Shown here one piece after another: positions 16,755 through 44,305 of a stretch of 64,000 nucleotides of DNA; the stretch's first letter is position 1, and each line of letters starts with the position of its first letter. The stretch lies in assembly GCA_012862575.1 (NCBI GenBank), contig BLSF01000014.1, positions 496,001 to 560,000 on the forward strand. The letters are read 5' to 3'. The notes beneath the pieces were generated by a model that was given only the letters and a program-made list of their open reading frames with translations, was not told where the DNA came from and did not search any database. Made by a program: the position numbers and the translations under genes. Source of the stretch: Parietichytrium sp. I65-24A. Its lineage: Eukaryota; Sar; Bigyra; Thraustochytrida; Thraustochytriidae.

Positions 16755-16756
<2 letters not shown>

Positions 16757-16772
16757 CGCCGCGGCCAGCCTT

Positions 16773-17538: not shown

Positions 17539-17601
17539 AACAAAACAAAACAAAACAGAACAGAACAGAACAGAACAGAACAAAACAAAACAAAACAAAA
17601 A
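17539..17601. repeat. Pentanucleotide repeat AACAA/AACAG
   Basis: About twelve 5-bp units: AACAA at both ends and a block of AACAG in the middle, symmetric in arrangement. Confidence 0.9.
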
Positions 17602-18064
17602 TCAACCCAACTCCAAAGCAAACAAACAAATCTCAAAGCTACGGCTTCAAATGACGCCTCAACTCCTTCGAGTGCGAGGAAGCGACAGTTGCCAGTGCCA
17701 CATAACGCCACATCATCCATGATCGCCACGAGGTGTGTGTCGTAGTTTTCATGGTACAAGGTTAGGATAGGTTGTGCGTAGTGTCAAGTAGCGGAGATGT
17801 GAAACGATGGAGAAGATTCATAGAAGATCGTCTGACATGTCTGACATTTCTGACATAGTCTGACTGTGAATGCGCGTGGCCAAGAACAGAGTAACAGAGT
17901 AACAGAGTGAAGAGAAGGAGTAGGACAGAACACAACATTGGGAGACGAAGCGACACACTTGCAGAGACAGAGAGACAGAGAGACGGACTCGGAGCGATAC
18001 AGGTTGAGCGAAGAGAGACAGGGATTACAAGGAGTACAGGGATCGAGCAAGTTAAGATAAGAAG

Positions 18065-19754: not shown

Positions 19755-20310
19755 CCTTCAAATTAACAGAATTCAGAAAAAGGAAATCTAGAGATAAAAT
19801 CGAAAAATTTTATTGAAAATTTATTATCTATAGAGTGATTAAAATCGAACCAACAAACAGTGGATTGCAGTTTGCCTACCTACTAGTGCAGTGCTTAGCT
19901 AACGGAAACATACGATACCGGTACTTGTTTTTATGCCCTGTATGCGTTGAGGTGGATTTCATCTTCGTCATAAATGCCGGGGAACCTGGCCAGCACAAGA
20001 GTTGCTGTAATTGAGGTCCAGAATTAACACAAGTTCAGGTCCAAATTGACACATTGCTGAAAGGGAAAGCTTCAGCAGATAGAGAAGCTTCTTTGGAGAT
20101 ATTGGCTCTGTGCGGAGCTCACAAATTGCGCTTGCTGCGACGCGAAATTTGCTAGTGGCACTTGCAATTTGCTGCGATTCAGCTGAGTTCGTCCACCATT
20201 AGTCAATGTAACGGCTCAAATCTTGGCAATGCTTCGGAGTGTGCAAGGTTGTGCAGAATTCAGGTATTCCGGCGCCACGCTTGCGCAAAAACTTGCGCCG
20301 CGAGTGGAGC
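19755..20310. other. Spacer before the membrane-protein cluster
   Basis: 556 bases, AT-rich near 19790-19850, with one TACCGGTA palindrome at 19915. No gene seen. Confidence 0.6.
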
Positions 20311-21999
20311 ATGGCCACAACGGCGGACTTGAAGTCAGGAGGGCCTGGCAATGCCGCCGTCTATAAAGGCGGAGAGCACGGAGTGCAGCACATCTATTAC
20401 ACAGAGCGAAATAAGACTATGATCGATTTTCGCGAGGATACACTCCTCAAAGCACTCCTTGGCGAAAGCTGGAATCAGTGGAGGGCGCAGAACGCGCGAC
20501 GCCTGTTCCCAATTCAGATCCTACTGCTGTCGCTTGCTTTCGCCGGGCTGTCAGCTTCTCTCGCCGTTCCAAAGTTGGAGTATCTGAGTTGGCTTGGTCT
20601 TGTCCTTTTCCCTCTCGCACCCCTCAATCTTGGAAGCTGGAACATCCATATGATGAGATTGATTGTGCGCACTTTTGACGGAGTGTTCCTAATTGCCAAT
20701 GTCATTGGGTACACCAGTATGCTTCTCCTTTTGCACGCCGGAAAGCCCGCGATTCAAGCCACCGTCGCAGGATTTGGATTGCATCTGATGGTGATTCCGT
20801 TTTACGACGCTTACCCCCCACCAATCCGCCAGCGAAGCAGACTTCTAAATCTGGTCTTTGTTTTAACGCTGGTCGTCTTGGGCTTCCATGGGTTCTTCTT
20901 CGTGGATGACGTCTCGATTCCTTTAGGGGCAGACTCTGTTTCGGCGAAGAACAGGTTGCTGGGCTTCTCAATGACTTTGACTCCGTTTCACTTGAAGAAC
21001 ATTTACGTCAGCATTTTCAACGACGCAAGAACTCTGTCCACCCTTAAAGTCCCGATCAAATGTGCACTCACCTCCAAGATGACACGCTCTGGAAAGTGCG
21101 GTGGGACAAGTGCGGTGCTTGACACGACTCACGCCCAAACTCTTTCCGCAAAAATCGCGCCAGGAGAAGAGAGCTTGTCGGCGTTAAAGAAAACCTCATT
21201 GACTCGTTTGGTATCTAGGATGGAGCCATTCAGCGTCACCTTTCGACATGATACGGTCGCTTTCAGGCTGATTGGCAAGTCTTACGCGAAAGTTTGCAAC
21301 ACTGTAGCAAAAAACCGTCCCATCTTGATCCCGGTTCTAATCTCTCACTGGCTGGGGCTCTGTTGCATGTTCCTATCAATGTTTGGAGGCTTCTCGAATG
21401 TGGGGTGGCTCGCCGGCCTCATGCTCCCCGCCGAACTCACGCTGGGAATTCCCATGCTCAGCGTGACGATCCTCAAAAGACTTGCTCGATCGTTTGGAAA
21501 TCTATTTATGCTTGGAAATGCGCTGGCCTTGGTAGGGAGCATGTTATATTTGTTCAGGGGCGTTCCGCCTGTATTTTTTGCTTTGATGTGCTCGATTTTG
21601 ACTATCATCTTCGTCACTTTCTGCGACGCGATGCACCCGAAAACGAAACGCATGCTCGTGTTTCCTCTATTCTGCTGCATGGGAGTCAGTCTCGCCGTAA
21701 CTGTTGGAATTTTTACAGACTCCTTATCTTTGACAGACTCAAGCGCAGCCAACACTATCATAGACTTTGGCAAATTTCAGCTGTCGGTATTGAGCATGAC
21801 GGTATCGTTTGCGCTCACCCTGAGCACTTTTTCAGCCAGGAACTTTTTAGCGGCTGTAATGCTTTCAGGGGAGCGGCTCATAATCCTGCAGAGTACGCTG
21901 CATCTTTCAAGCAGCGAAGAGCCATGTCCGAACCCTCCTCGCCCCAAGGGTCCCAAAGCGTCTAGATTGTGCATGGAAGAAACAGCCAGCAGCGAGTAG
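20311..21999 (+). CDS. Two-repeat 12-TM membrane protein, family member 1
   Basis: 562 residues from ATG 20311 (upstream frame starts at GTG). Family not recognised. Half 1 spans ~26-250 and half 2 ~302-530. Each half has a soluble entry segment (I-Y-Y-T-E-R ... I-D-F-R-E-D-T-L at 28-45; M-E-P-F-S-V-T-F-R-H-D-T-V at 304-316) and about six hydrophobic segments. Half 1 segments are near 65-85, 91-110, 118-140, 147-165, 177-198 and 210-235. Signature 1 is F-Y-D-A-Y-P-P-P-I-R at 164-173; signature 2 is C-D-A-M-H-P-K-T-K-R at 438-447. After the sixth segment come T-L-K-V-P-I-K (244-250) and R-L-I-I-L-Q (522-527). This is the shortest member, with almost no N-terminal domain and a ~50-residue linker. 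No signal peptide or intron. It converges on member 2, 104 bases away. Transport, channel or lipid-handling roles are all possible. Confidence 0.8.
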   Translation: MATTADLKSGGPGNAAVYKGGEHGVQHIYYTERNKTMIDFREDTLLKALLGESWNQWRAQNARRLFPIQILLLSLAFAGLSASLAVPKLEYLSWLGLVLFPLAPLNLGSWNIHMMRLIVRTFDGVFLIANVIGYTSMLLLLHAGKPAIQATVAGFGLHLMVIPFYDAYPPPIRQRSRLLNLVFVLTLVVLGFHGFFFVDDVSIPLGADSVSAKNRLLGFSMTLTPFHLKNIYVSIFNDARTLSTLKVPIKCALTSKMTRSGKCGGTSAVLDTTHAQTLSAKIAPGEESLSALKKTSLTRLVSRMEPFSVTFRHDTVAFRLIGKSYAKVCNTVAKNRPILIPVLISHWLGLCCMFLSMFGGFSNVGWLAGLMLPAELTLGIPMLSVTILKRLARSFGNLFMLGNALALVGSMLYLFRGVPPVFFALMCSILTIIFVTFCDAMHPKTKRMLVFPLFCCMGVSLAVTVGIFTDSLSLTDSSAANTIIDFGKFQLSVLSMTVSFALTLSTFSARNFLAAVMLSGERLIILQSTLHLSSSEEPCPNPPRPKGPKASRLCMEETASSE

Positions 22000-22103
22000 A
22001 TTAGCTGTTGTGATCTGTTGTGTAGTTTTGGACTTTTTTAACTTCTTCCTATCTTCTTTCTCTTCAATGCACTTTAAAATATTAAAAAATATTGCTGAAA
22101 CCA

Positions 22104-24038
22104 TCAAGAGGGCCGTAGATCTCCGGATCGTGCCCTACGGAGCTCGCTTGCAAGTCTATTTTTGTCGACTTCGCAGTAAAGTCTAGATGCTTGCTTTCCC
22201 ATCGAAAATACTCTTAACCACCCTCGCAACTCGACTAAAACCTCACAGCGCTTTGTTATTGAAATCACAAAATTTCGCACGGAAAATAAGCCCAATGTAA
22301 AAGAGAAAGACATGGCTCGGCTAAACATGGAGAGCTCCATGTTCCCAGATGGAATGTCATAGTCCTTCACATCAGTGAATCCCATGAAGGAGAAGAATAT
22401 CAGCAAGAAGAGCAAGGCTGCTGTCAAAAACATGCCTGCTGTACCAATACGTTTCGACTTTGGATGCATGGCATCAATGAAGCAGAGATTAGCTATCAAA
22501 GTAGGCGACGTGCAGACCAGTGCAAATTCACGACTTGGATGCTCTCTAAATAGCACAGCCAGCGAGAGTATTAGGCCCAACCCGTTCAACAACACGAAAA
22601 AACATCGAAACGACTCGGTGATCTTCCAAAAGATGGTCCTGCTCATCAAGGGATACGTCAAGAGCAGATATGCAGGGAGCTGAAGGCCCGCAGCCAAGCC
22701 AAATTGCCCCATGCCTTTAAACAAGGAGGCATACGCGGCTGCCACTCCAACCAATTGCAAGAGTATAAGTGTATTTGCGAGCGCTGTGTTCCGACCAATT
22801 TTTTGACACAGCCTTGCAAACGACTTTCCACAATAGAATTCGGCAAGGGTGTCAGCATGGAAGTCGACATTAAATAATTCCCATCTTGGGTAAACGAGGG
22901 TGACATGCTCGTCCTCTATCGCAGTGTTTGCCTCCCCGTCTGCACGCTCTCTGCCAGAGGACAAATTGGGTTGTGAACGAGCTGTTGATACCCAGCTGCT
23001 TATCTTCGAACACCAATTCCGTGGACTCTTTGATGCGGATTCTTTGACGGAAAGAGTCGCATGCCGCATCTTCGACTTTGCCCGCCATGCACGTATGACT
23101 GCATTCGAGTCTATCGATTTAAGTGCTACGAACACGGGTCTACTGATCCTCATGCTTCTAGCCCTTGCCTTCAGCATCGCTAGTTTTGACGATTGGAACC
23201 ATCCCGTCTGGAGATTTCTTCCGTGGAAAGCGATCAAAGTGCTCAAAAATCCGAACAGACGATTTTTCGCGGAAACAAAGTGCACCCCAACGTAAAATCT
23301 ACGATCGGCGAGGTTGGTGAGCATAAGCTCGCAAATGACAACACCAAAAAAAACGGCTAGTCCAATATTGGGCAAAATGGCTTTTCTCCGCACTTGCTGA
23401 GGGTGAGCATCGTAGAAAGCGATGGACAACATGTGTATTCCGAAAATCACAAAGCCGAACTGAAGGCTCGTATGCCCAGCGTGAAGCAAACAGAGCATTG
23501 TCGTGAAGCCAACTATGTTATAGAGAACGTAGCAAGCCTCGAAGCACTTGAGCAGCCGTTCACAGATCTCGACGTTTAGATCTTGAAAAGCTAGTGGTGA
23601 GAAGACCAAGGTGAGTGCACTAGTCCATGCAAGATAGCCATGCCTCGTGTAGAAAATCGCAAAGGCCAGACTCGAAACAAAGATTAAGAATACAAACCCG
23701 AACAAAGTCGAATATCTGCGGGTGAAACCCCACAATCGCCTTGCAAGCTCTGGTCCCCCAAGTTGGTAAGCTAGAGAACCCTTCCGAAAGCTCAGTGCGA
23801 ACGACTCGGTTTCTGCGTAATAAACATAAATGAAGTCGTCTGGAGAAGTCGAGCTCTCTAAACGCTTCAAACGCTCTAGGAGCTGCTTCCCGAGAAGCTC
23901 TCTCTCTCGGCCCTCTTGTATCGACCTCAGCACGGCGAGTTGAGACACTCTCAGCTCATAATCCTCAGCGTCTGCCCTCTCCTGTCCATCGTCCGCCACG
24001 CGCGAATCTGCCAGCCCTCCTCGCCCATTCGATATCAT
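22104..24038 (-). CDS. Two-repeat 12-TM membrane protein, family member 2
   Basis: 644 residues from ATG 24038; the longer frame begins at TTG. The N-terminal ~65 residues are charged and probably helical. Half 1 spans ~70-295 with F-Y-D-A-H-P-Q-Q-V-R-R-K at 208-219 and S-A-K-N-R-L-F-G-F at 256-264. A basic linker (~295-375) leads to half 2 (~378-605) with V-D-F-H-A-D-T-L at 391-398 and I-D-A-M-H-P-K-S-K-R at 521-530. The strand motif after half 1 is degenerate (A-M-L-K-A-R-A-R). Half 2 also departs from the usual G-G-R-L-I-T-L-Q. Divergent from member 3 across ~970 bases. Function unknown. Confidence 0.8.
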   Translation of the reverse strand: MISNGRGGLADSRVADDGQERADAEDYELRVSQLAVLRSIQEGRERELLGKQLLERLKRLESSTSPDDFIYVYYAETESFALSFRKGSLAYQLGGPELARRLWGFTRRYSTLFGFVFLIFVSSLAFAIFYTRHGYLAWTSALTLVFSPLAFQDLNVEICERLLKCFEACYVLYNIVGFTTMLCLLHAGHTSLQFGFVIFGIHMLSIAFYDAHPQQVRRKAILPNIGLAVFFGVVICELMLTNLADRRFYVGVHFVSAKNRLFGFLSTLIAFHGRNLQTGWFQSSKLAMLKARARSMRISRPVFVALKSIDSNAVIRAWRAKSKMRHATLSVKESASKSPRNWCSKISSWVSTARSQPNLSSGRERADGEANTAIEDEHVTLVYPRWELFNVDFHADTLAEFYCGKSFARLCQKIGRNTALANTLILLQLVGVAAAYASLFKGMGQFGLAAGLQLPAYLLLTYPLMSRTIFWKITESFRCFFVLLNGLGLILSLAVLFREHPSREFALVCTSPTLIANLCFIDAMHPKSKRIGTAGMFLTAALLFLLIFFSFMGFTDVKDYDIPSGNMELSMFSRAMSFSFTLGLFSVRNFVISITKRCEVLVELRGWLRVFSMGKQASRLYCEVDKNRLASELRRARSGDLRPS

Positions 24039-25003
24039 TGCTGCTCTGCCTCCGTTCGTCCTGAATGAACGTCCTGAATGAACACTTTTGGCCGGAGCCA
24101 AGCTCCATCAATTAATTACACATCGCCAACCCTCACAGGACCGCACCACCTGCCGGCATAAGGAAAAAGTGATCTCGTGTTGGCTTCTAGTCGCTCGCGC
24201 CAATGAGAACCGGTAATCGTGGTCATCGCATCGTTTTCGCACCGATGTTATTCAACATAATTCTTGCTGTTATTACGATGTTACCGTTGCGACGTGTCAC
24301 AATGGCACTACGGCACACTTTAGCATGGCACCGTGACCTCAATGCTGCTGTTGAAGTCAAAAGTGCGAGGGGTATGACCGCGGGGATCTTGGCCGCATCC
24401 AGTCATGATGTAATTCGCTCAATTCGTACTCGCATACTCAATTCGCACTGGACGATTGTTTCATAAACGCCGTCGACTGTATGGTCGGTCTCAAGCACCA
24501 AGCTCCGCCAGCCAAGCACCACATCGGGCCAGTTCCTTGGAATTTTTCATGAACATGTCCGTTGAACAGGAGCCACCCGGTGCCCGGCCCGGCCCAGCAC
24601 GCCAAGAGTACAATACCGGTACTGGTATAGGACCGGTCTCGACGACTTGTGAGTGGGGTGAGTGCGTTGTGAGGAAGCGAGAGCAAAACATCACAAAAGG
24701 ACGCTAGGTTGGCTTGGCTGAGAAGGGCAATCCAAATCCATGCCAGCACGTCCATCCAACACATCCAATGAAGACAAATGCCAGGAGGTGAGTGTTCAGT
24801 ACTCACTACCCAATCAACTTATATAACAGGAGAAAAAAAACAAAGAAAAAGAAAATGTTGAACTGCAAGTGGGATTACACAATTAAAGTTCCTGCTCGTG
24901 TTCCTACGACTCAACGGATTCACGAATCCCTGTGGATTCCAGTCGGAGGTCCTCTTGTCCGCGCAACAACTGCCTTCCGAGCAGCGCTGGTGGTGAGTAT
25001 GCA
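24039..25003. other. Spacer between divergent members 2 and 3
   Basis: 965 bases. It holds a short stretch resembling a LINE reverse transcriptase (24203-24300), a TACCGGTA palindrome at 24614 and an A-rich tract at 24830-24855. GGTGAGTAT at 24991 could be a splice donor, but I find no convincing exon for it. Confidence 0.5.
24203..24300 (+). mobile_element. Possible relic of a non-LTR (LINE) reverse transcriptase
   Basis: One frame reads G-H-R-I-V-F-A-P-M-L-F-N-I-I-L-A-V-I, close to the LINE consensus Q-G-C-V-L-A-P-x-L-F-N-I-x-x-A-x-V around the RT motif between the two catalytic aspartate blocks. No Y-x-D-D box, endonuclease, poly-A tail or target-site duplication was found nearby, so at most a short fragment survives. 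Chance resemblance is possible. Confidence 0.25.
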
Positions 25004-26905
25004 ATGCATGGCCATGACGCATGCGGAGAATGCCCCGTTGAGGAGCCTCTGCGTGCGGTAGTGGAGCAGTATGCAGCAGCTTTTTCGGCGGAGGGACTGG
25101 GCACTCTGAGTGATTGGAGTTCAGAGGCTGTGGATGCGGAGTTCGTGACTGCAAAGCTGAAGGCGCTCGAGGAGCGGGAATCCTCACAAAGGAAAGTTCA
25201 TTTATTTTACTCGGATCGGACGTGCTTCGTGTTAAATTACCGCCGGGATTCCATCGGAAGGGCGGTGGGTTTGGGTCGCTTCGCAAAAATTCTCTGGATG
25301 CTCACAAAGAAGCTGCACATTTTGTTTACGCTGATTCTGACGTTCAGCTGCTTCTGTACGGTCGCGGCACTCTTCTTCGGTGAGCTGCGCCACCTATCCT
25401 ATTTCGGTGTTGCCATCATCCCATTAATCCCTGTAGCTTTTAATGGGATGAATACCGTGTTGATCGCCAAGCTCTTGCAGTCCTTTGACGGGCTGTACTT
25501 AATCTTCAACATTTTGGGATTCGTGCTCACGAACATGTTATTGCATCGGCGTGAGCTAGGAGTCATGTTGGCTACATTCTCCTTCGGAACATATCTCTTC
25601 TTCGTCCCGTTCTATGACGCGCTGCCTCCACCGCTGAGGAATCGCTCAATCATTCCAAACACCCTCTGCTTAGTCTTGTATCTCAGCTTTGGAGCAAAGA
25701 GTTTTATGTCGGACGTGGAAGATCTCGAATTACAAATTGGAAGCCAACACACGGTGTCTGCCAGAAATCGAGGCTGGGGTTTCCTCAACACGCTATTAAT
25801 CTTTCACATAAAGAACATGTACTTGAGTCACATCCAGGGAGGGTCTGTGCTCACAACGCTGAAGGTCCCGATTCGTAGCATCGAGGTTTCGCCGGCAACT
25901 GCTCGTGTTTTACAGTGCACAAGCATGCGAAGTATTCTCGCTTCTCTTGGGTCACGGGATGAAAAGCATGGAACCCCTAAAGATCCTCTTGATGCCGCGA
26001 GCTCTTTCAACCCCCATGCTTCTAGTGAGGCCGCAAGCACTTCAACAGTGTATCCTTCTAACAATCTGCACAAGCAAGATTCTGCTCCGAAGAAGAGGAT
26101 CACAAATGTGGGAGATGTTCGCGAAACTCTATTCTACTCCGCATTTCCGATGTTTTCCGTGTCATATTCTCACGATGCAGTAGCACTCTCCATACTCGGG
26201 CCGAGGTACACAGCGCTTTGTCGCAAAGTCGCCAGGAACCGGCCTTTGAGTTTGTTCTTGGTGGCGACGCATTCGACGGGGCTTCTGTGCTTTCTTTTGT
26301 CTCTATTTCAAGATCTCGATCACCTCGGGTGGTTGACGGTCCTGGTGTTCCCGGCTGAATTGATGCTGGCCACCCCAATGCTCAGCAAAACGATTTTGCG
26401 TCAGTTGCTGGGCACCTTTGGCAACTTATTCGTGCTTTTCAACGCACTTGGTTTCATGTTCACTTTGCTTATATTGTATTCGCACCAGCCTGCAACACAG
26501 TTCGGTGCGGTCTGCGCTACGCCATCAATCATAATCATGACTTCCTTCGACGCTATGCATCCCAAGACTAAAAGAAGAGCGTTTGGGCCACTTCTTGTGG
26601 GTGCTTCAATCTTCTACGGCTTCATCATCTCCCTCTATCTTGACCTACTCGGTGCCAAGGAGACCAAGCTGACCATTGGCTCGGTGGAGATTTCCGTCTT
26701 GAGTAGAGCTATCTCATGTGCATTCACATTGTGCATTTATTCCACTAAAAACATAGTGGCCGTCTTGAGGAATTCTGGCGGCCGTCTTATTACTGTCCAG
26801 GGCAGTATGCGTATGGTGCGGGCACCTTCGCAGGTTGCTCGGCGCGCAGAGGCCTGGGAGCCCTCCAGATTTGCGCAAAAGATCGCCGAAGACGCTTCAG
26901 TTTAA
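25004..26905 (+). CDS. Two-repeat 12-TM membrane protein, family member 3
   Basis: 633 residues from ATG 25004 (the frame begins at GTG 24932). A short N-terminal domain (~1-60) has C-x-x-C and helical character. Half 1 spans ~64-292: H-L-F-Y-S-D-R-T at 66-73, F-Y-D-A-L-P-P-P-L-R-N-R at 203-214, S-A-R-N-R-G-W-G-F at 252-260 and T-L-K-V-P-I-R at 285-291. A Ser-rich linker (~295-370) follows. Half 2 spans ~374-605: F-S-V-S-Y-S-H-D-A-V at 384-393, F-D-A-M-H-P-K-T-K-R at 515-524 and G-G-R-L-I-T-V-Q at 592-599. It is closest in motif detail to members 1 and 4. No intron. The C-terminal tail is ~30 residues and basic. Function unknown. Confidence 0.8.
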   Translation: MHGHDACGECPVEEPLRAVVEQYAAAFSAEGLGTLSDWSSEAVDAEFVTAKLKALEERESSQRKVHLFYSDRTCFVLNYRRDSIGRAVGLGRFAKILWMLTKKLHILFTLILTFSCFCTVAALFFGELRHLSYFGVAIIPLIPVAFNGMNTVLIAKLLQSFDGLYLIFNILGFVLTNMLLHRRELGVMLATFSFGTYLFFVPFYDALPPPLRNRSIIPNTLCLVLYLSFGAKSFMSDVEDLELQIGSQHTVSARNRGWGFLNTLLIFHIKNMYLSHIQGGSVLTTLKVPIRSIEVSPATARVLQCTSMRSILASLGSRDEKHGTPKDPLDAASSFNPHASSEAASTSTVYPSNNLHKQDSAPKKRITNVGDVRETLFYSAFPMFSVSYSHDAVALSILGPRYTALCRKVARNRPLSLFLVATHSTGLLCFLLSLFQDLDHLGWLTVLVFPAELMLATPMLSKTILRQLLGTFGNLFVLFNALGFMFTLLILYSHQPATQFGAVCATPSIIIMTSFDAMHPKTKRRAFGPLLVGASIFYGFIISLYLDLLGAKETKLTIGSVEISVLSRAISCAFTLCIYSTKNIVAVLRNSGGRLITVQGSMRMVRAPSQVARRAEAWEPSRFAQKIAEDASV

Positions 26906-28630
26906 TTTTTTCCCCTGAACAGCGATTGTTTATAATAAAGAACAGAGAAAACATTTTTTAAATTAACAGTAAATCGCTTTGTTGATCGTATTCTGTTCAC
27001 GAAATACTTTTACCCGCTATGCCAGGGGTTACAGCTGCTCACTGTCGTTCGCCTCCGCTGTAAATAAATTATGCGAGAAGTCCATTCCCTCCTGGTAAGA
27101 ATTGCGATCTCCTTTGGCACTTCTCAAGCCGTTCGAGACTCGCACGCCGACAGTTGTGATAACGCTCGCCAATGGCCTAGCATCTAAAGTTTCTTTGCCC
27201 CAGCTTTCCAATGGTTACACCTGCGTGTGTTGATCGCGCTCCTCGCGATCGCAACTTAACGAATATATTATCGGTCCCAAGCGACTGCTCGACAAGCGCG
27301 GAGCGAAAATAGCTCGCGATTAAGCCAGGCTTCTGGCTTCTGGCTTCCATGAGTCTACGAGAAGGAAGGATGTCTGGCAGGCGGGCCGGCGGCGGGAAGC
27401 CCGTCGGAGACTTGGAGGCCATAGTCTGAAGACGAAGGCTTACACCAAAGCCAGCATTCGCTTTTTTTTTTGGGGGGGGGGGGGGGGCGTCATGTTGCTC
27501 CTATTTTTGCAGTGCACTGATAGTGCGTGTACGATGGAACGCTCTCCTCGTGGGCAAACCAAGCATCCAGCATCCAGCATCGCATCCAATGGCATTCGCA
27601 TTGGCATTGGCACTGGCACTGGCACTGCGGCGTCGCAACGGTACTATCAGAAATGCAATACACCGGGATGTCGACTATTGTCGACTACGGCAGCTTCACC
27701 ATCGCTGCAGGAACCAAGTAGGTCCCGTTCGACGGGTAACGGGTCCGGAGGTAACGGGTAACGCCTAGGGCGAGGCCACTTCAGTGGATGAGCTACCCGC
27801 AGCTGCCTAGCACCCAACAAACAAACAAACAAACGCGTTTGCAAATCGAGACTCACGAGGAGTTGCACTGCGGGAGGGAGGCAGAGAGAGAAAATCGAGG
27901 TACCGGTACTGAGTACTGCCTGTGAGTAAGCATGTTTACTTGCAAGCTCCCTTCCTCCTCCAGTCTGCCCGGCGATGGTTAGCCTGTGAAGATAGACTGG
28001 TGTTTGCTATAAATTAATCGCCGTTCTCACGCGCACGTTCGTGATATTTCGTGACTCGCATCATCATGTTTCGAGGCAGGACGTACTGCACAGGTAATTG
28101 GTATTAACAGTGAATGTGAGTCGCTGCGCTGCTTGGTCTTGGTACCGGTACTGACTTTTCCCGATTCATGTGCGATTCGAAAAGAGTTGGCTCAATAAAA
28201 GGTTGGTAGCACGGTGGAGTTGAGAGCCACTGGCAATATTGGCAGACTCAGATATGTTGGCTGGCAATTGAGCTCTCTTGAGCTCTTGAGACCCGGGGAG
28301 TCCGAAGAGTTGAACCTAGTCGGGAGAGGGCGAGTCTTGACTGACTCTGCGAGTTGGTGCGTTATCGGAGATGGTAAAGTTTAAGTGCTCTCATGGGAAC
28401 TTCCAGAGGGACCTGATTGTGAATTCTCATCCGTTTGCAGTATGAGTTGCAGTACGCACGACAAATTCACAAGGTAATAATCTCGGCAGCTAAGATTGTA
28501 CGGCTATGTTTGCCCAGCTCGACGCAACCTGTTGTGTAGTTTTCGTTTCACAACACCGACCTTGCCAAGTGCCAGGTTCCAGGTACCAGGTGCCTGACGA
28601 CTTGAGCACTCGGGAGACCGTCGAGGATGA
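26906..28630. other. Spacer between members 3 and 4
   Basis: 1.7 kb with no supported gene. It carries the T10G16 run, short GGCATT/GGCACT repeats near 27593-27627, (CAAA)n near 27817-27835, and TACCGGTA palindromes at 27901 and 28143. Confidence 0.6.
27462..27487. repeat. Homopolymer junction T10-G16
   Basis: Ten T followed directly by sixteen G. The G-run can form a quadruplex and is a likely site of sequencing or replication slippage. Confidence 0.95.
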
Positions 28631-31279
28631 ATGATGGCGCGGACTGATCCTGCGAGGACGGTGTCTCCGGAGTGCAGTGACCGGCCACAATCTTCCATTC
28701 GAAGCGAACAAGATGCTGGAGAGCAACTGGACACCGTCATCGCTGAGTATTTGCGAGACTTTGATAGCCCGCGAAGCGCAGGCCAGGATGCATCGTTTGG
28801 AGCGGAGAGCAGCGACTTTGATCCAGCGGACACAGATCTTTCACCAAAATCGAGCGCCATGAACAAGATTCTTGCACAGATTCAGAGCATAGAGTACGAG
28901 AACGAAGGAAGAAACCTTGTGCAAGTATTCTATCCTGACCGGCGGCCATTCACTGTTAATTTTCGCGAGGACGCTTTGGCGAGAGCTCTATTTGGGCCGG
29001 AGCTCGCCCACAAATGCTGGAGTTTCGGTCTCAAATATCGGCACCTGCACACCATGACCATCTTTGTTGCTATTCTCTGTATTGTAGTGCCGCTGTTTTC
29101 GAGAGATCTGAGGTACTTTTCGAGCGGCGGAGCTCTCCTGTTACCAACTGCTCCATTTCTACTGCAAAGCGCAAGTTTACAACTTGTGAAAAAGCTGATG
29201 CGCTCTTTCGACGCCTTGTTTTTGGTGTACAACATTTTTGGGTTCATGACGTCAGTCTTCATCTTGAACCCGGACAATCTTTCGCTAGGTTTCTCTGTGA
29301 TTTGCGCTTTCCCGTACTTGCTCATGGTACCTTTTCATGACGCCCTCCCCCCGAAACTGAGGGCAAACACTCTTATCCCCAACTTGCTTTTGATGTGCTT
29401 CATGTTGTCGTTTGGCATCAGCAGTTTTTTAAACCAATCATTCGCGGAAGACGGGCTTTCCGTGTCGACTTCCGGTATATTATCTCCAAGGAACAGGTTG
29501 TTTGGCTTTTTGTCAACCTTGATAGCCTTCCACAGCAGAAACATATACTTCAGCGCATCCATGGGAGGCCGAAGACTATCTATACTGAACGTGCCTATCA
29601 AGTCTGTGCAACTAACTTCAGCTGCCGCGCAAGCGCTTCGGAGGCTCGAAGCGTCGAACATACTACGACGCCTTGAATCTAGATCTACTTTGGTGCCATT
29701 CCGGCCAGATTCGAAGGATTTTGCGAGTAGTCGGCCAACAATCGAAACCCTGGATACGAGCACCGGCTATAGCACCAGCACCAGCTTCCAGACAAGCAGC
29801 TCAGCTCGAATGCGGCAAGACCGCGAAAGCATCAGCTTTCGGGTGAAGAGAGAAGCTGGTTTTGGAGTAAAACTTGCTTCTTCGAAGATGGAACCGGCGG
29901 ACCAGGACCCTGAAGATCAAAGAAGGGAGGACTCGCGCGAGCTTTCGGAGGAAAACTCCCACCGTCTCCATTCGCATCGAGCTGCGTCAGAACGGAATTC
30001 TGATTCTCAAACGCGCTCATCCGGTAAAACGACCTTGAGTGAGAGAAAGGCCAAACATTTTGATTCTGCCCGCGATCGGAAGCTTGCTTGGCATCAGGAA
30101 CCAGTCTCAGCTAATGAAAACTCCCAACTGCGACACCGATCCTGTAAAGTAGTGCCACTGGATACGTCGTTTAACATTAGGTCCGGAGCGGCTCACTCCA
30201 CGGAGTCTGGAGTAGCAGATGCGAGTCGCTCCTCTGAGGAGGAGAGCCTGTCCTTGTTCTACTCAGAACTAAAATCGTTTGAGGTCCGTTTTAGCCAAGA
30301 TATGCTGGGACTGCGTCTGCATCGTAGGTATGGCAAGATTTGCCTGGCTGTGGCACGTGAGCCACTAGCTGTCATGATTCTGATTGCATTCCACACCATT
30401 GGATTGGCATGCACCTTCTTGTCGCTATTAAGAGGAAAATCTCATTTAGGCTGGTTTGCTGCCCTGATCATACCGGCCGAAACTCTTTTGACAGTACCTT
30501 TGCTCAGCAAAACCCTGGTCTTTAAGCTGCTGCGGACGTTCGGAAATCTTTTCATTCTAACGAACGCTTTCGGCTTAATGTTTTGCCTCTTCATAGTCTT
30601 CCGAGGGCAACACGCAACCCAATTTGCCCTCGTTTGCGCAACGCCAACAATCTTTGTGACAATGACCTTTTTCGATGCTATGCATCCCAGAGCAAAGCAG
30701 AGGGCCACTCTGTCACTCTTCTTTGGTGCAGTCCTCTTCATGCTCGTGATTCTGGGAATGATTCTTGACATCTTTGGAGGGCATGACGTTCACTTTCACA
30801 TCGACGTTTTCAAATTTTCTATGCTTGGCCGTGTGGCGTCGTTTGCTCTCAACTTGACTATTTATGCTTCTAGAAACGCTTTTGCTTCCGGGACCACTTA
30901 TGGCGGCCGACTTATTACTCTGCAAGCAACTCTCGTGGTTCGCAAGACGTCAAGAAGCATTGCTAGAGGATTCACGATGGCAGAGCCCGGCGGTGTAGCC
31001 CAGGAGCTTCGGAGAACCCAGATCCTGTCCAAGAAGTCGAGCGCTGCCTTTATGAAAAGATCCAGCAGCTCTCAGCTGCTCCACAAGAGCAGCAAAATTA
31101 TTAACGCATTCCGTGTACCGACATCACCCCTCTCCGCCCCAGCTCCCGCTGGCGATGGTATGTATCTGACCCAGGGAATTGTACAACCCCATACCTCGCG
31201 TGAAGTCGACAAAGATAGTGACTCGTTTGGGAGTGACATTATCCAGGTTGACTCGCGTCCAATATCTCCTGAACATTAA
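28631..31279 (+). CDS. Two-repeat 12-TM membrane protein, family member 4 (longest)
   Basis: 882 residues from ATG 28631 (a second ATG follows directly). The N-terminal ~95 residues are acidic and hydrophilic. Half 1 (~97-325): V-F-Y-P-D-R-R-P-F-T-V-N-F at 99-111, hydrophobic segments near 140-156, 163-180, 190-212, 218-236, 248-266 and 284-305, F-H-D-A-L-P-P-K-L-R at 235-244, L-N-V-P-I-K at 319-324. Half 2 (~541-770): L-F-Y-S-E-L-K-S-F-E-V-R-F at 542-554, F-F-D-A-M-H-P-R-A-K-Q at 680-690, G-G-R-L-I-T-L-Q at 758-765. The two halves have nearly equal length (229 and 230). A ~215-residue Ser/Arg/Glu-rich linker separates them, much longer than in the sister genes, and a ~110-residue Ser/Lys-rich tail follows half 2; both are likely cytosolic and open to phosphorylation (inference). 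Confidence 0.82.
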   Translation: MMARTDPARTVSPECSDRPQSSIRSEQDAGEQLDTVIAEYLRDFDSPRSAGQDASFGAESSDFDPADTDLSPKSSAMNKILAQIQSIEYENEGRNLVQVFYPDRRPFTVNFREDALARALFGPELAHKCWSFGLKYRHLHTMTIFVAILCIVVPLFSRDLRYFSSGGALLLPTAPFLLQSASLQLVKKLMRSFDALFLVYNIFGFMTSVFILNPDNLSLGFSVICAFPYLLMVPFHDALPPKLRANTLIPNLLLMCFMLSFGISSFLNQSFAEDGLSVSTSGILSPRNRLFGFLSTLIAFHSRNIYFSASMGGRRLSILNVPIKSVQLTSAAAQALRRLEASNILRRLESRSTLVPFRPDSKDFASSRPTIETLDTSTGYSTSTSFQTSSSARMRQDRESISFRVKREAGFGVKLASSKMEPADQDPEDQRREDSRELSEENSHRLHSHRAASERNSDSQTRSSGKTTLSERKAKHFDSARDRKLAWHQEPVSANENSQLRHRSCKVVPLDTSFNIRSGAAHSTESGVADASRSSEEESLSLFYSELKSFEVRFSQDMLGLRLHRRYGKICLAVAREPLAVMILIAFHTIGLACTFLSLLRGKSHLGWFAALIIPAETLLTVPLLSKTLVFKLLRTFGNLFILTNAFGLMFCLFIVFRGQHATQFALVCATPTIFVTMTFFDAMHPRAKQRATLSLFFGAVLFMLVILGMILDIFGGHDVHFHIDVFKFSMLGRVASFALNLTIYASRNAFASGTTYGGRLITLQATLVVRKTSRSIARGFTMAEPGGVAQELRRTQILSKKSSAAFMKRSSSSQLLHKSSKIINAFRVPTSPLSAPAPAGDGMYLTQGIVQPHTSREVDKDSDSFGSDIIQVDSRPISPEH

Positions 31280-34051: not shown

Positions 34052-34374
34052 TTTTTTGTTTATATTATTATTCTCGATGAGCCGTCCAGCAAGCTCTTAC
34101 AGCACGTCAGTCGGATGCTCAACCGAGATATTGCAAACGCAGATGCTCAGACTTCTCAATTCTTAAAAGATAAAACATTTTTTTAAACTTTCGGTCATGT
34201 TGAAAAAATTCCTTCTTTTCCTCTTCATCTCTCAACACCATCGGCGTCTGGGGGAAAACTCGACCGAAGCAAAGGAAAAGGTTGTGGTTGCAGATGCTAA
34301 CTTCGTTCATTTATATCATTATAAAACTGTGCTTGTTGCTCGTTTGACCTCTTTCTTCAATGAAAAAGAAGGAT
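34052..34374. other. Short spacer between convergent genes
   Basis: 323 bases forming the 3' flanks of the J-domain and PH genes. AT-rich; nothing else seen. Confidence 0.6.
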
Positions 34375-36696: not shown

Positions 36697-36868
36697 CCTC
36701 TCCACGTCCCACGCCTCAAATTCCGTTACGCCTCCAAGCGTTTCGCGCTCTCAAACTGTGCGTAAACTTCTTCCCCGACCTGCCTGTCTGCCACTCGCAC
36801 AGAGCCGAGATGCGCCAAAACTACCCACCTTCCCGTTGAAAGAGGGCCGATCGAGCCTCGCGGACGCC

Positions 36869-36894
36869 GTCTGTCTGTCTGTCTGTCTGTCTGT
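36869..36894. repeat. (GTCT)n microsatellite
   Basis: Six GTCT units directly upstream of the minus-strand PH gene. Confidence 0.9.
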
Positions 36895-37061
36895 ACTCGC
36901 TGTGTGTACTGGCTGTATGTACGCTACCTGTCCTCGCAGTTAGCAGCTCACAGCTCTGTGTACTTAATACCGGTAGAGAGAGAATGAGAAAGTGAGTGAG
37001 GTGAAGCGTTTCCTGGCATGCGAAGGAAAGAAAGAAGAAAGTGAATAAGAAAGAAAGACAA

Positions 37062-37115
37062 CATGAATGATGGATGAATGGATGAATGGATGAATGGATG
37101 AATGAATGAGTGAAT
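37062..37115. repeat. GATGAATG minisatellite
   Basis: Runs of GGATGAAT/GAATGGAT octamers with decay at the right end; a related GGAT tract lies at 37247-37293. Confidence 0.85.
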
Positions 37116-37246
37116 GGATTTATGTTTAGTTTTCCGATTCGGAAGACGGCGGAGAGCTCAGATAGGGAGGGGTGAAGTGGTTGATCGGCGAGTATTTGGC
37201 AGCGACTGGGTCGTCGATGCACTGTCTGACTGGTTCAATGAGATAA

Positions 37247-37293
37247 ATGATGGGTGGATGGATGGATTGATGGATGGATGGATGGATGGATGA
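37247..37293. repeat. (GGAT)n microsatellite
   Basis: About eleven GGAT units with GGGT and GATT variants. Confidence 0.85.
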
Positions 37294-38544
37294 TCGAGAT
37301 CGGCATGTGGCACGGTGGGTGGATCGATCAACGGAGAGATAGTTTGACGCCAGAGCGACGATTCGTCGACGGTGGAACAATCAACGCTACCAATGGCGTC
37401 GTGCATGGCCACCCCGTCCGTACTCAAGGGCTTTGAGCGACAGTGTGCCAGCACACAGTACACCGGTATTCACAGTGTTCATTCATGTCCATGCTGCTCG
37501 AAGAAAAAGCCACTTTCTTTCCTGATTTCATAGTACGGCACGGTTGGACTTTCTGAAGTTTGAGAAAGTCTGAGCTTTGATCATGGACTGCGAAGGTTGT
37601 CTCTATGCACTTTACGCGGCCTTCAAACACTTTCAAACGCAAAGAAGATTTTGATTTCTTTCAGTTTAAAATAAAAAAGAAGACGACAAAAGACAAAGAG
37701 AGCATCGCCCTGAATTGTGTTCCCTTCGAAGTTGCGGAGTTGTTAGCGTTTTTGGCTAACCACCTAATACATGAGAATCTTCATTTGTCTTCGCCATTTG
37801 TCATTTGCACGAACGCTACTCGCGAATGAAGGGATGCTAGGGTCGGGTTTGCGGGCGGCGCACTGGCGCCTCTGTTATGGACTTGGGTTTTTGTGGGAGA
37901 AACTGTGAGTGTGCGCCGTGTCCTGTGTGATCATGGGCTTTGAACGAGCTGGTGTGAGGGCGAATGGCGACAACCTAACGGTACCTGAGAGAGGGGGTAG
38001 GGCACTCCCGCGTTCCGGGGAATCCGCCTGATCCTCCTGGTTTTGATCATGTTCAGTGCTCGCTAATTTCACTAACAGCAGCGAACGAGTGATTCTGAAA
38101 CTAACTGTAGAAGGCGCAGACAAGTGCGAACGCCGAAATGGTCCAGATGGAAAGATCGAACCTGAAAACCGATGATGACGAGCGCAGAGGGAGCGTTACA
38201 TAGGGCCGCGCTTCACACTGGAGGATTGAGAGCGAGCTCTAGAGTACCATGTCTGAGGCTACTTGGCTTTCTCGAGTATTTGACCTTTTTCGTCGGAAGG
38301 AAAAGCAAGGTGAAATGTCTGAGCTTTTTATCCACAGTCGACAACAGAGCGTCTGGGGCTCGAAGAAAAGCATTTCATCAAGGATCAGAGTTTAAGTTTG
38401 TGCTTGACGAGAGTCAGTTGCAATGCACCTGGAATAGAGATCGGGTGGACGAAAGAAGAGAAGATAAACATTTAGAGTACGTTTAGAATTTCTTCTTCTT
38501 TAGACTAATAGTTTAAAAAACTGCATCATTCCCAGTCAGTCGCG

Positions 38545-40629
38545 TCATGTCGCGTCGCGATCAAGCATTGCCGTCTCAGTAATATTAGGAAGAGATTTCC
38601 CGTTTGGCGCCTCGTGGTAGTGCCGCGCGATTCGCAAAGGTGCCCCAATAGAGGTCAGCTTTTCCCCCGATGACGCGATAGCGTTGAAACTAAACTTGAG
38701 GCAGAAGACCACGACGTTAAATGCAAAGGAGAGAAGACGCTCCGCGACGGATATGTGGAACCCGCCAATGACGATTATATAATCCTGCAGCTCCAGCATG
38801 TTGTTCGTTAACATGCGAACGATGATGAGGCACGCGAAAGCACCGGCGAATATCATAAAAGCGACAAATCTTCTCTTCAACTTCGGGTGGAATGCGTCAA
38901 AAAAGACGACCGAAACCAAGACGGACGGGGCCATGCAGACTATCGAGAATTGTGCAGAGGGTCTTGATCTCAACATAATCATCAGGCAACCGAGGTAGCC
39001 AAATATGTTTGCACACAGATACCAGCTTTCAAAGGTTCGACAAAGTCGAGAAACGATCGTTCTGCTCATGAGAGGATTTGCCAGCACAAAGTTAGCAGGT
39101 AGCGTTAAGGCGGTGAACCATCCACTAGTTGGATGAGTCGAATTTATCGTCCAGGAAAAACACGAAATTCCGACACAATAAGCAGTAAAAAGCGAGAGAT
39201 TCAGAATCTTGGAGTGGTTGGCTTCGACGAAGAGTCGAGCAAGCCGCCTGCTCAAAAACGCACTGGCGAGCGTGTCCCTTTTGAAATCAACCTGGAATGC
39301 TTTCACGTCGGAATAGAACAAATGCGCTCCCTGCAGTGGCAGAGTTCTGTTTCCATTTTGTTCTTTTGACGCACAATCCTCCATCTCCGCCGGTATAACT
39401 TTTGTGATTGCTGATTTCTGTTTTGACAAAGAACTTCGGCAGTTCTCTATCTCAGCTACCCACAGACTCAACACTTGGCCTGCGCAGCTTTGCTCCTGGT
39501 GCTTCATGAGTTCCTGAAGCTTTTGCAGAGAGTGTCTAAGCCAAGATATCGGCACCAGGCCATGGGCACCAATTTTAAGCTTAGACTTGGTCTCTGCCTT
39601 TTCAACAAACACGCCCACTCCGACAGCTTGTAGTTCGCTTTGCGTGTGTATCGTAACGAGTTCACGTGCGGCTCGTTCAGAGAGCTTCATGGTTTTTAAT
39701 TGTACCTTTAGGGTGTTGCAAACATTCGGCCCCTTGAAATGCAAAAGCATTTGGTTCTTCACTTGATAGACGGTCACATTTGTCAAGAAGGCGTAGAATC
39801 GAGACTTGACGGATAATACAGGGTTTCCAAACAGTGCTTGGTCTTCCAACGGAAGCACATCAAGTGCAATAAGCGAGCCCAAAAGAATCTCCAATATGAG
39901 AAACATTCCTACGGAAGCCTGAGTTCTGAGTCTTGCCGTAGGTGAAAGTGAGTCGTGGAACGGTTCGAAAAGCAGATGCGGCGAGAATAATAAGAGAGCC
40001 AGTTGAACAAGGGGCCTCCCGGTCAAAAGAGACAAGCCGCAGACTATCATCCCCAGGCCGTTCATGAAGAGATACAGGGCAGAGAAAGAAGCGAGCAGCT
40101 TTTTCAAGAGTGTAACGCTCGATCCGTGGAATATTGTGATAAAAAGTGGGATGGAGAGCAGGGTGAGCCAAGCCAGCTTCTCTGTTGCTGGGAAGAAAGC
40201 CAGTAGCGCTCCGGATAAGCAAGTCAGATTTGAAATGAGACTCATAGCCTTCCATCTCCGAATAAACCTCCAGAACCTATTTGCTTTCTCCTTGCCAAAT
40301 AACCACGCAAAGACAGAGTCCTCCTGGAAGTTTACTGCAAACGGGTGCGTGTCAGAGTAAAACATCTGAACTGTTCCTTCGTGAGGTAATCGTGCGCAAC
40401 GGCGGGGTGACTGTTTGCTCGCTTGAGCCGTGGACTCCGAGTAGAGTGAAAATGTTGACTGGTTCGCCCTCAACACTTTTCTGGCATAATGGACCCCAGA
40501 AGGCGCGCCAATCTCTTTGAGACATTGATTCACAAACTCAACCGCGTCGCCTGTGATCCCGTCTTCTTTGAACAGGTTCAAGATCAACTGAAAGCGGCAC
40601 ACCACCACATTAGACTCGGCGACGTTCAT
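38545..40629 (-). CDS. Two-repeat 12-TM membrane protein, family member 5
   Basis: 694 residues from ATG 40629; 80 more codons are open upstream but begin at TTG and are not conserved. N-terminal domain ~1-85, partly helical. Half 1 (~86-312): M-F-Y-S-D-T-H-P-F-A-V-N-F at 89-101, F-H-D-S-L-S-P-T-A-R at 224-233, V-K-S-R-F-Y-A-F near 274 and T-L-K-V-Q-L-K at 306-312. The linker (~313-430) is longer than in members 1-3 and looks helical. Half 2 (~434-668): L-F-Y-S-D-V-K-A-F-Q-V-D-F at 437-449, F-F-D-A-F-H-P-K-L-K-R-R at 577-588 and K-L-T-S-I-G at 657-662. Here the half 1 signature has Ser for Ala and the half 2 signature Phe for Met. Tandem with member 6 on the same strand. Confidence 0.8.
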   Translation of the reverse strand: MNVAESNVVVCRFQLILNLFKEDGITGDAVEFVNQCLKEIGAPSGVHYARKVLRANQSTFSLYSESTAQASKQSPRRCARLPHEGTVQMFYSDTHPFAVNFQEDSVFAWLFGKEKANRFWRFIRRWKAMSLISNLTCLSGALLAFFPATEKLAWLTLLSIPLFITIFHGSSVTLLKKLLASFSALYLFMNGLGMIVCGLSLLTGRPLVQLALLLFSPHLLFEPFHDSLSPTARLRTQASVGMFLILEILLGSLIALDVLPLEDQALFGNPVLSVKSRFYAFLTNVTVYQVKNQMLLHFKGPNVCNTLKVQLKTMKLSERAARELVTIHTQSELQAVGVGVFVEKAETKSKLKIGAHGLVPISWLRHSLQKLQELMKHQEQSCAGQVLSLWVAEIENCRSSLSKQKSAITKVIPAEMEDCASKEQNGNRTLPLQGAHLFYSDVKAFQVDFKRDTLASAFLSRRLARLFVEANHSKILNLSLFTAYCVGISCFSWTINSTHPTSGWFTALTLPANFVLANPLMSRTIVSRLCRTFESWYLCANIFGYLGCLMIMLRSRPSAQFSIVCMAPSVLVSVVFFDAFHPKLKRRFVAFMIFAGAFACLIIVRMLTNNMLELQDYIIVIGGFHISVAERLLSFAFNVVVFCLKFSFNAIASSGEKLTSIGAPLRIARHYHEAPNGKSLPNITETAMLDRDAT

Positions 40630-42142
40630 GGCATCCCCCGCACCAGCCGACGGCGACAAGTGCCTCGCCACGTACAAGAGACGACGGAGTCGCCTTGCTT
40701 GCCATGCAACTCCGCTTTGCTGCGTTTGTACCAGGCTGATTGTGTCAGACTTGAGTTTGCAGGGTCGGCAAAAAGAAAATGGTAAGCCCTGACCTACATT
40801 CTTACCCACACAGGAATACACACACTCTCCCTCTCTGTCTGACAGCGAAAGAAAGAAAACCACAGTCAAGACTTGTCAATGAATTCCTCAGTAGAGAGCT
40901 CAGAGATTGATAGACTCAGGTCACTCTTGAGCAATCGGAGAAAGAGAGAGCGCACTTCTCTTCAACCAGCTCTTGCACTTCATGTCGCAAATGTTTTTAT
41001 CCGTTCAGAGTTTTACAGGTGTTTGTATACGAAGTCACTAGCACGTACAAATCGCGGCTTGAGGCCCTCATGCGATGTAGATTTAAGTGAAGCCACGAAG
41101 TGAAAGCGTAAACAAACCCTATCAGAAGGTGGGGTGATGTAGAGCTGGCAGTTGCAGCGAATCCTGCCCGATTGCTTGAAACACCAGCGGCTCCAGCATT
41201 CCCTGTCAGGAAAGTCACCGCCAATTCTTGGATGACCGCTTGTAAACGCGAGCCACAGCAGACTAGCAGCGACAAGCTCCGCCTGCGTGCTTCGACACCA
41301 CCAGCGCCAGTATTGAATTGAAATGAGAATAAGAATTCACATGAGACGTCTCGTAACCTCTTGTTTCCGCTGTTGAACGCAGTTGCAGTGCGTCGCAGAG
41401 CGTTCCTGTGACTGCTGTCCATGTACTGTTCCTGTGCGAGAGGTTCATCAAAGACGTCAAATGTAGCTTTCATTGTCATGCGGCACTTGGTCTGCGTCAC
41501 ACATCGCTCCACCATTGCCCGAAAAAAACACCGGTGAAATTAAGTGCAAGTCACATGACTTTGGTATGACGTTATATAAGTCACACAGTCCTACCGCGGC
41601 CGCGGCGGATGATCATGTAACGGATAGATGGTGTCGTCGAAACTGACAGTGAGTTTGGGTGAGTATGAGCTCGCAGGGAAAAAAAACTTTTGATGTTTTG
41701 CGCAGTCAAGAGTGTCGGGAGACTTTTCGGTATGCTTGAACAAAGGGTACTCTGTGAGAAACGCGTTCTCCTGTAAAAGTAAAAGTTAATTTCCATCTCC
41801 CGACTCAAATACGTGATCAGTCTTTAAAGGGATGAAACTGTGAGTACAGTCATAGATTTATTCTTCTCTGCCACAAGTTTGGACAGGAATAGCTGTACAC
41901 ATCACTAAAGGATTGAACTCTTCTTCTCTCTCCTCTGAGAAGTTGCTTGTAAAAGCGCAAGTTCAGTAGTGAGTAAAAATGATAATGTATGGTGGCCATC
42001 TTTTGTGTTCCGTCTACTGGGCGTTACAGTTTTGCTGTCCGGAGTCCAGTTCTGAGCATGCGGTCTGGATGCAAAAAAATGCCGGAGGAGATGACTTGCG
42101 CAAAGCGTGTAGATGGTTCTGAGATAGCACAATGACATCGAC
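40630..42142. other. Spacer between members 5 and 6
   Basis: 1.5 kb. Apart from the doubtful frame at 40997-41515 nothing is supported. An ACACCGGTG palindrome stands near 41530. Confidence 0.55.
40997..41515 (-). CDS. Hypothetical small protein (doubtful)
   Basis: 172 codons from ATG 41515 with two further Met in the first 15 residues. The product is of mixed composition, with a Gly/Ala/Ser-rich middle (~100-130), and shows no domain or membrane segment I recognise. It lies alone between two family members on the same strand. Length alone is the support; codon use is not clearly coding. Confidence 0.3.
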   Translation of the reverse strand: MVERCVTQTKCRMTMKATFDVFDEPLAQEQYMDSSHRNALRRTATAFNSGNKRLRDVSCEFLFSFQFNTGAGGVEARRRSLSLLVCCGSRLQAVIQELAVTFLTGNAGAAGVSSNRAGFAATASSTSPHLLIGFVYAFTSWLHLNLHRMRASSRDLYVLVTSYTNTCKTLNG

Positions 42143-44305
42143 TTAATTCTTTCCTGCCTGAGATCTCGGGAGGCTTGGGAACAGTTTCGCCGAGCGCAAT
42201 GCCGATTTGGATTTGTAAGCGGCTCTCTGCGCTTGCAATTCTCCGACTATGTTGGAGATATCGAACTCCACCATGAATCTCGCGACGGATCTTGGAAGAT
42301 TGAGCACGCGAAGTGAAGAGACCAGCAGGACATTGGAAGACCCATCTGGGGATGAACCAAGGGCTGCTACGTTTTTAAATGAGAAGACGGCCAACGTCGT
42401 CGAAAAAGAAAAGAGCCTTGCCTTGAGGGACACCTTCATTCCAAACATCTCCCATAACACGTCATCAACACTGAACCAATCGAGGAGGAGGCCTACGCTA
42501 GTGTAGATGAACACCGCTAGACCAACGATCATTCCTACGGCGGCGCGACGTTTTATCTTTGGGTTCATCGCATCGAAAAACTGCATCGAAACTACGGATG
42601 TTGGCCCTATACAGAGAATTCCAAACATTGAGTCGGGATGATTACGAAAGAGCACGAGAAGAGCTCCGACATAAGCTATAGCGTTCAAGACCATGAAAAA
42701 ACTCGTGAAACGAAAAAATACTCGCTTCACCACTGTCTTGCTCATTAGAGGGATGATCAGCAATAGATCTGCGGGCAAAGTTAAACAAGAAAACCACCCT
42801 TGCCCTCGCTGGTGAGGAAGCATGGCATAAGCAAAGCTGGTGATGCCAACGACGTACAATCCTATAGAAATCAATCCCATCAAAGGGAATTTCGATATTT
42901 TGATCCCGATCTTCATCAACCACCTGCCCACAAGTGCTTCTCCGACAGAATCTTCGCGAAATACAACCTCGAAAGGCAACTCTTCGCTAAAAACAACGCT
43001 AACATGCTCGTCTTCCTCGCCTGTGGCGAGCGTAGATGCGTGGTATTTGGAGATGCTGGGTGTCACGGGGGAAATCTTGAACAGAGAGTTTGACCTCACT
43101 TTTGTGTGCTGGAGGGCTCTCCGTGTTTCGGCAATCCACTGAGACACCTTATTTTCAAAATCGACCGCATGCGACACTCGTGAAACCTCCTGGAAATAAT
43201 GTAACAGATACTTTGTGTATGTGCGCGGCAGAACACGGTGAATTCTCTCATACTCAAGAGCGGTGGTAAGGACTTTGATGACGTGCAACAATCTGATTTC
43301 ACTGACTACTGCTTTTGGGAGCATGGTAGACTTGAAACGCGCGTGGTAAAAACAAAGAGCAGTTGGCCCGTGTCGTTGCAAATGAACAAACATTTGAAAT
43401 TGGAAGAGCATGAGGCTGGTCAGAAAGCCGATACTGCGGCTCGATACAGACACAACGTATTCTGCTTTCCCGATCTGATAGTCGTCTGTAACCTCAAACA
43501 ACTCGAGGAAGACACCGATAATCCAAAAGGCGCAGTACATGGCGGTAAAAGCGAGGGTGTGGCGCACCTTGCCCCTGACTTTTGGCACGAGACTGTCGAA
43601 CAGTGGCATAGCAATTAGGTAAGGGAGGAACGCGAGAAGTGAAATTTGCACTCTAATCTCCGTGGGAAACAAAAACACAATGCACACCATGAACCCCACT
43701 GCGTTCATAATTGAGTAGATGATGGGAAAGCTCGTGAGAAGCCGAAGTGAGAGAGGGACGCAAAATCCTTGCAACATTGTGAACAGAGCTGGAAGCGCAA
43801 GGCATCCAAGTAATAAGAAGTTTCGGAAACGAGGGAACATGCCAACAAACAGCGCCAAATAGCCGACGACATGAAGCGAATATGTTATTCGAGAGGTTTG
43901 CTTGGTGAAGCGTGCAAATTTTGCCGCGGCTTGTCTTCCAAAGAGTCTTGCAGAAAGTGCATCTTCTTTGTAATTCACCGTAAATGGCTTCAGGTCCGAA
44001 TAAAAGAACTGCACTGCATGCTGGCCATCTCGTCGTTTGTACAAGTTGAACAAGTGCTCCACAACCTGTGCTCTGCTCCATAAACCCTCCGGCCCTTTAT
44101 TTAAATAGTCTTCGAGCGCTTGGCTCGCCAAAGCATTGCCTTCGCCCTCTTTATGGAAGAGCTCGCGCACAATAATTACGAGTGGAAACAACAGTGAATC
44201 AGCGCTCGCACTCATATTCCATCCGGCCGAAGCCGCAGCCGCAGCCGGAAGCGATCGGCCGCTCACGCTCTCTTCAAACACTTTTGAGCGTGGTCCGCCA
44301 TACAT
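42143..44305 (-). CDS. Two-repeat 12-TM membrane protein, family member 6
   Basis: 720 residues from ATG 44305. The N-terminal domain (~1-95) has an Ala-rich stretch at 20-27 and a hydrophobic helix near 38-50. Half 1 (~97-325): F-F-Y-S-D-L-K-P-F-T-V-N-Y at 100-112, L-F-D-S-L-V-P-K-V-R-G-K at 235-246, S-S-R-S-I-G-F at 288-294; the exit strand is lost. The linker (~325-430) contains helical, Arg-rich sequence. Half 2 (~433-668): V-F-S-E-E-L-P-F-E-V-V-F at 438-449, F-F-D-A-M-N-P-K-I-K-R-R at 577-588 (Asn replaces the usual His) and a degenerate exit strand. This is the most diverged member in half 1. Function unknown. Confidence 0.8.
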   Translation of the reverse strand: MYGGPRSKVFEESVSGRSLPAAAAASAGWNMSASADSLLFPLVIIVRELFHKEGEGNALASQALEDYLNKGPEGLWSRAQVVEHLFNLYKRRDGQHAVQFFYSDLKPFTVNYKEDALSARLFGRQAAAKFARFTKQTSRITYSLHVVGYLALFVGMFPRFRNFLLLGCLALPALFTMLQGFCVPLSLRLLTSFPIIYSIMNAVGFMVCIVFLFPTEIRVQISLLAFLPYLIAMPLFDSLVPKVRGKVRHTLAFTAMYCAFWIIGVFLELFEVTDDYQIGKAEYVVSVSSRSIGFLTSLMLFQFQMFVHLQRHGPTALCFYHARFKSTMLPKAVVSEIRLLHVIKVLTTALEYERIHRVLPRTYTKYLLHYFQEVSRVSHAVDFENKVSQWIAETRRALQHTKVRSNSLFKISPVTPSISKYHASTLATGEEDEHVSVVFSEELPFEVVFREDSVGEALVGRWLMKIGIKISKFPLMGLISIGLYVVGITSFAYAMLPHQRGQGWFSCLTLPADLLLIIPLMSKTVVKRVFFRFTSFFMVLNAIAYVGALLVLFRNHPDSMFGILCIGPTSVVSMQFFDAMNPKIKRRAAVGMIVGLAVFIYTSVGLLLDWFSVDDVLWEMFGMKVSLKARLFSFSTTLAVFSFKNVAALGSSPDGSSNVLLVSSLRVLNLPRSVARFMVEFDISNIVGELQAQRAAYKSKSALRSAKLFPSLPRSQAGKN

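Follow-up and report, generated by a model that had tools for sequence, protein, structure and literature searches.

The 64-kb stretch of Parietichytrium sp. I65-24A DNA analysed here (the window) is part of contig C14 in an assembly of 42.5 Mb and 172 contigs, and it carries six long genes, P0001 to P0006, that belong to an old, diverged family of duplicated membrane proteins. All six open reading frames (ORFs) listed in an initial annotation were found, with exactly matching coordinates and lengths (Table 1), and their description as intronless holds insofar as each gene is a single open frame in the genomic sequence. Over the full length, the other five proteins are 23-32% identical to P0001, and a six-frame scan of the window for further copies or fragments returned no seventh, the next best match having an E value of 0.39.

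A repeated six-helix unit and its conserved core

Each of the six proteins consists of two halves of one repeat family, with a repeat unit of about 240 residues. A 238-position profile made from the 12 window halves finds two copies in every protein, albeit in the same proteins from which it was built. To avoid this circularity, a second profile took in solely the 23 half sequences from elsewhere in the genome; it matched 12/12 window halves with domain E values of 2.5e-61 to 2.1e-35, while none of the six reversed proteins used as a control was listed at E up to 1000. The halves have diverged strongly (16-43% identity over 66 pairs, mean 25%). By hydropathy, each protein has 11-15 candidate segments, and the predicted models, one of the whole of P0003 and one of its C half, contain six long helices per half, flanked by one beta strand ahead of the first helix and another following the last. 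The earlier view of six diverged paralogues with a two-half plan of about 12 segments is supported. The halves are joined by a linker of widely varying length, about 32 residues in P0001 and as many as about 200 in P0004. A common cytosolic helical module preceding each half was considered and rejected: a profile of five linkers recovers its five sources, but the best of the other forward sequences (the linker of P0002 at E 0.035 and the N-terminal region of P0004 at E 0.42) did no better than the reversed controls, which reached E 0.03 among the matches listed.

Conservation was counted in a genome-wide alignment of 35 halves, excluding gaps and X. Phe 101 (35/35) and Asn 109 (33/35) are near-constant in helix 3, as is Asp 145 (34/34) after helix 4, where Ala, Pro and a basic residue follow in most rows. 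The motifs quoted in the initial annotation are better regarded as a loose consensus. The entry motif, which begins with F-Y-S-D, occurs in its exact form in only two of the 12 window halves and in a relaxed form in eight; F-x-D-A-x-x-P is present in 8/12, and S-A-K/R-N-R-x-x-G-F in only three, each an N half. The motifs do not vanish upon alignment, though two of the three are much rarer than had been implied.

The distribution of charge bears on topology. Lys+Arg versus Asp+Glu per row comes to 5.1/3.5, 2.5/0.4, 2.5/1.2 and 2.9/1.3 in the four stretches on the N-terminal side and to 1.0 versus 3.0 in the helix 5-6 loop, while the two short outer loops have a slight basic excess (0.6/0.3 and 0.7/0.4). 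Because of this positive-inside count, we favour on balance an intracellular placement of both protein ends.

Table 1. The six family genes of the window, with positions given in window coordinates
Protein	Length (aa)	Position	Strand	Halves	Remarks
P0001	562	20311..21999	+	20380-21096, 21193-21939	
P0002	644	22104..24038	-	23121-23837 (N), 22176-22910 (C)	
P0003	633	25004..26905	+	25190-25912, 26117-26848	modelled whole; C half also modelled separately
P0004	882	28631..31279	+	28913-29638, 30242-30973	inter-half linker ~200 residues
P0005	694	38545..40629	-	39658-40377 (N), 38596-39333 (C)	
P0006	720	42143..44305	-	43295-44020 (N), 42272-43009 (C)	

Copies across the genome, their age and constraint

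The genome was searched with P0003 and P0006 and then with two diverged members, and the fetched loci were analysed by ORF and profile; the resulting family counts are lower bounds. Apart from fragments, they come to at least 15 full-length members, spread over six contigs. Besides the six on C14 (those of the window), C79 carries three in tandem, C88 and C17 two each, C2 one, and C101 a single diverged member. The statement that the copies stayed within 24 kb is therefore correct for the six, but not for the family, since nine more full-length copies sit on five other contigs. Partial members were found on C41 (several, adjoining masked bases or where the contig ends) and on C92 (pieces in differing frames), and C71 gave a weak match (E 0.012). 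On C92, at about 16308-19043 (L027/L024), one frame carries the N half as far as 17042, the end of that half lies in another frame from 16862 and the C half starts at 17931, as would be the case with either an intron or a decayed copy. On C41, two C-half fragments of equal length and score (275424-275945 and 277279-277800; L025/L026) lie 1855 bases apart in a stretch that contains masked bases, and may form a tandem array of partial copies.

Among the three recent C79 copies, dS is 0.16-0.19 and dN/dS 0.23-0.26, so these, at least, are under constraint; in the C88 pair dS is saturated. A tree was made from 28 of the 35 half sequences, leaving out four near-copies and three short fragments. It groups nine of 13 N halves (support 91/98, under the program's star) and places the C halves elsewhere. 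The N and C labels require three changes each, against shuffle means of 9.6 and 9.5, and none of 500 shuffles was as low, although either label forms a single group in 0% of 200 bootstrap trees. As exceptions, the C101 halves pair together on long branches, and the N half from C2 and two N halves from C17 fall outside the N group. On this basis, the internal duplication is probably older than most gene copies, these exceptions aside.

Relatives, fold and possible function

The family has no sequence relative in the libraries searched. Pfam returned nothing for the six window proteins up to E 10, and none of the 24,736 Pfam-A models gave a convincing match for the window proteins, the 15 full-length members (E up to 1) or the 35 halves (E up to 10), with the caveat that HMMER filters discard most matches above about E 0.1. 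Candidates rejected as too weak were DctQ (best E 0.0016, 3/35 halves), Asterix (E 0.0058, 2/35 halves), TssN (E 0.014, 1/35 halves), and single rows from NCBIfam (best E 0.066) and PHROGs (best E 0.0053), and a search of PDB sequences yielded a kinetochore scaffold (E 0.54) and an ammonium transporter (E 3.1), both likewise rejected. Viral predicted structures, queried with the C half, gave 139 matches up to E 10 and none at E 0.001; a four-sequence alignment gave 18 and 50 pattern matches in IMG/VR and GTDB genomes, among which no relative was confirmed; and P0003 as sole query had no match in phages and plasmids. A confident match of all six proteins to one well-described family was not found, and the family was rightly called unrecognised as far as the family libraries searched and the PDB sequences are concerned. 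Our search of the literature on protist gene families found no account of it among the papers listed, and no such family is named in the excerpts consulted of PMC12258536, on thraustochytrid genomes, and PMC13183375, on ion channels across life.

In structural comparison, the best match of the whole P0003 model is an otopetrin, aligned over both halves with a weak Z score. The match to the N-terminal membrane domain (TMD0) of ABCC transporters (SUR1, MRP, Ycf1) spans one half only and ranks below the otopetrin rows. The predicted shape, as judged from one whole model and one half, thus appears closest to that of the otopetrins, which are proton channels of animals, a likeness that is suggestive only. 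By repeat profile and predicted model, our proteins have 12 helices arranged as a pair of homologous six-helix halves, the plan that PMC6483595 describes for otopetrins (OTOP, PF03189).

Our preferred reading, which we hold tentatively, is that duplication of a six-helix unit gave rise to a 12-helix multigene membrane family with an otopetrin-like double barrel that serves as an ion channel or leak pathway. Both ends and the linker would lie in the cytosol. Each unit would open with a short beta strand, in the F-Y-S-D region, and close with another, in the L-x-T-L-K-V-P-I region, and these two strands, which are present in the models, may pair and clasp the unit on its cytosolic side. In the otopetrin double barrel, helices 2-6 of each half make up one barrel; what passes through our proteins might be an ion, possibly a proton, and the Asn of helix 3 and the Asp where helix 4 meets the cytosol, both near-constant, could line or gate the path in each half. 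Of all this, the family, its repeat, the open frames, the conservation and the predicted helices are established by the analysis, whereas the cytosolic orientation and the otopetrin-like fold are inferences and ion conduction is a guess.

Several observations weigh against this reading. The otopetrin Z score is weak and no sequence link to that family was found. The beta strands that flank the six helices of each half set our proteins apart, as such strands are not known to be an otopetrin feature. No PF03189 row was returned by hmmscan for the six window proteins, the 15 full-length members or the 35 halves, and hhalign of two family alignments, A4 and A2, with an OTOP profile from four solved PDB sequences gave a probability of 0.1 with E values of 0.47 and 0.5; that profile was thin (Neff 2.2) and without helices 11-12. 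In addition, the constriction triad Gln-Asp/Asn-Tyr described for each half of XtOTOP3 (PMC6483595) lacks conserved counterpart columns by helix number, with the triad placed on helices 4, 5 and 6 by our own assignment from spacing. Because the profile comparison was null and the triad has no conserved counterpart, we do not claim otopetrin membership.

According to PMC12549899, the conservation of otopetrins extends from nematodes to humans, and they are unrelated to known transporters or channels. An Otopetrin family search of the present genome was empty, as was its control, and a literature search linking thraustochytrids and otopetrin found nothing. It is possible, though rather doubtful, that the otopetrin fold has a distant non-animal branch beyond recognition by sequence, with at least 15 diverged copies, a cytosolic beta clasp and other constant residues. 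If the otopetrin-like reading is true, the fold has relatives beyond the animal range given in PMC12549899, which would shed light on how it arose and reveal the residues that a double barrel requires. If it is not, there is still a membrane protein family with at least 15 members and no match in any sequence library searched, and its conserved core has now been delimited closely enough to build a family model and to test expression.

An unlikely but serious alternative is that the duplicated six-helix fold is unrelated to otopetrins and forms a small-solute carrier, its copies having diverged for different substrates. The weak Z score and missing sequence link leave room for such a carrier, and many diverged copies, under constraint where this could be measured (the C79 dN/dS), fit substrate diversification. 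Major facilitators have two parallel six-helix halves and a long cytosolic middle loop, and our two halves also fit that plan. Yet DctQ is the best of the Pfam transporter matches, none of them convincing, and no major facilitator superfamily row appeared in Pfam scans of the window proteins, 15 members and 35 halves. The proteins heading the Foldseek list, which we take to be major facilitators, superpose poorly (TM-score about 0.1-0.2, rmsd near 20 A), and none is among the 50 matches listed in a second structural comparison, although such an absence is no exclusion.

Fairly improbable, in our view, is a receptor or membrane-organising protein whose variable cytosolic linkers and tails bind partners while its helices sense ligand, lipid or stretch without conduction. 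The great differences in linker length beside conserved helix domains would suit this, as would the presence of old, diverged copies in tandem, a frequent arrangement among receptor families; on the other hand, no receptor family was matched in the Pfam scans, and the most conserved residues lie in or adjoining helices in the two halves equally, a pattern suggestive of a repeated core function and not of one ligand site. We regard it as more improbable still that the family has already been described in related protists under another name: the genome searches that found no relative covered prokaryotes, viral contigs, phages and plasmids, which leaves room for it, but the Pfam-A models, with no convincing match, speak against it.

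Neighbouring genes and genome content

Among 15 scanned neighbours in the window, only 11712-13985 had no family match. The others include a fatty acid desaturase, a B12-type ribonucleotide reductase, an AMP-binding enzyme, DnaJ, a PH domain, a ubiquitin-conjugating enzyme, a MINDY deubiquitinase, a Cys/Met metabolism enzyme, a myosin with MyTH4 and a P-type ATPase, and several of these families are eukaryotic. No light-harvesting families were found in the genome (the control was positive in one of 14 genomes, Synechococcus), so the host may be a heterotroph. A polyunsaturated fatty acid synthase had no genome match above the cut-off. The universal 18S stretch had no match in the assembly, from which ribosomal DNA may therefore be missing, and the lack of an exact match to a labyrinthulomycete primer site says little if that is so.

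The ribonucleotide reductase (14240-16573, - strand) is of the adenosylcobalamin type (class II), with RNR_Alpha and an RNR-II insertion domain, in a eukaryote-like genome. In the AMP-binding gene (18065-19754, + strand; acyl-CoA synthetase type), two overlapping frames match two parts of one Pfam model, pointing to either an intron or a frame change. The gene at 204-1400 (+ strand) encodes a protein with SAM-like domains and Arg-Ser stretches between them. Elsewhere, contig C66 holds a 5583-residue open frame (8562-22499) with four ketosynthase-like matches; it probably encodes a multimodular polyketide synthase.
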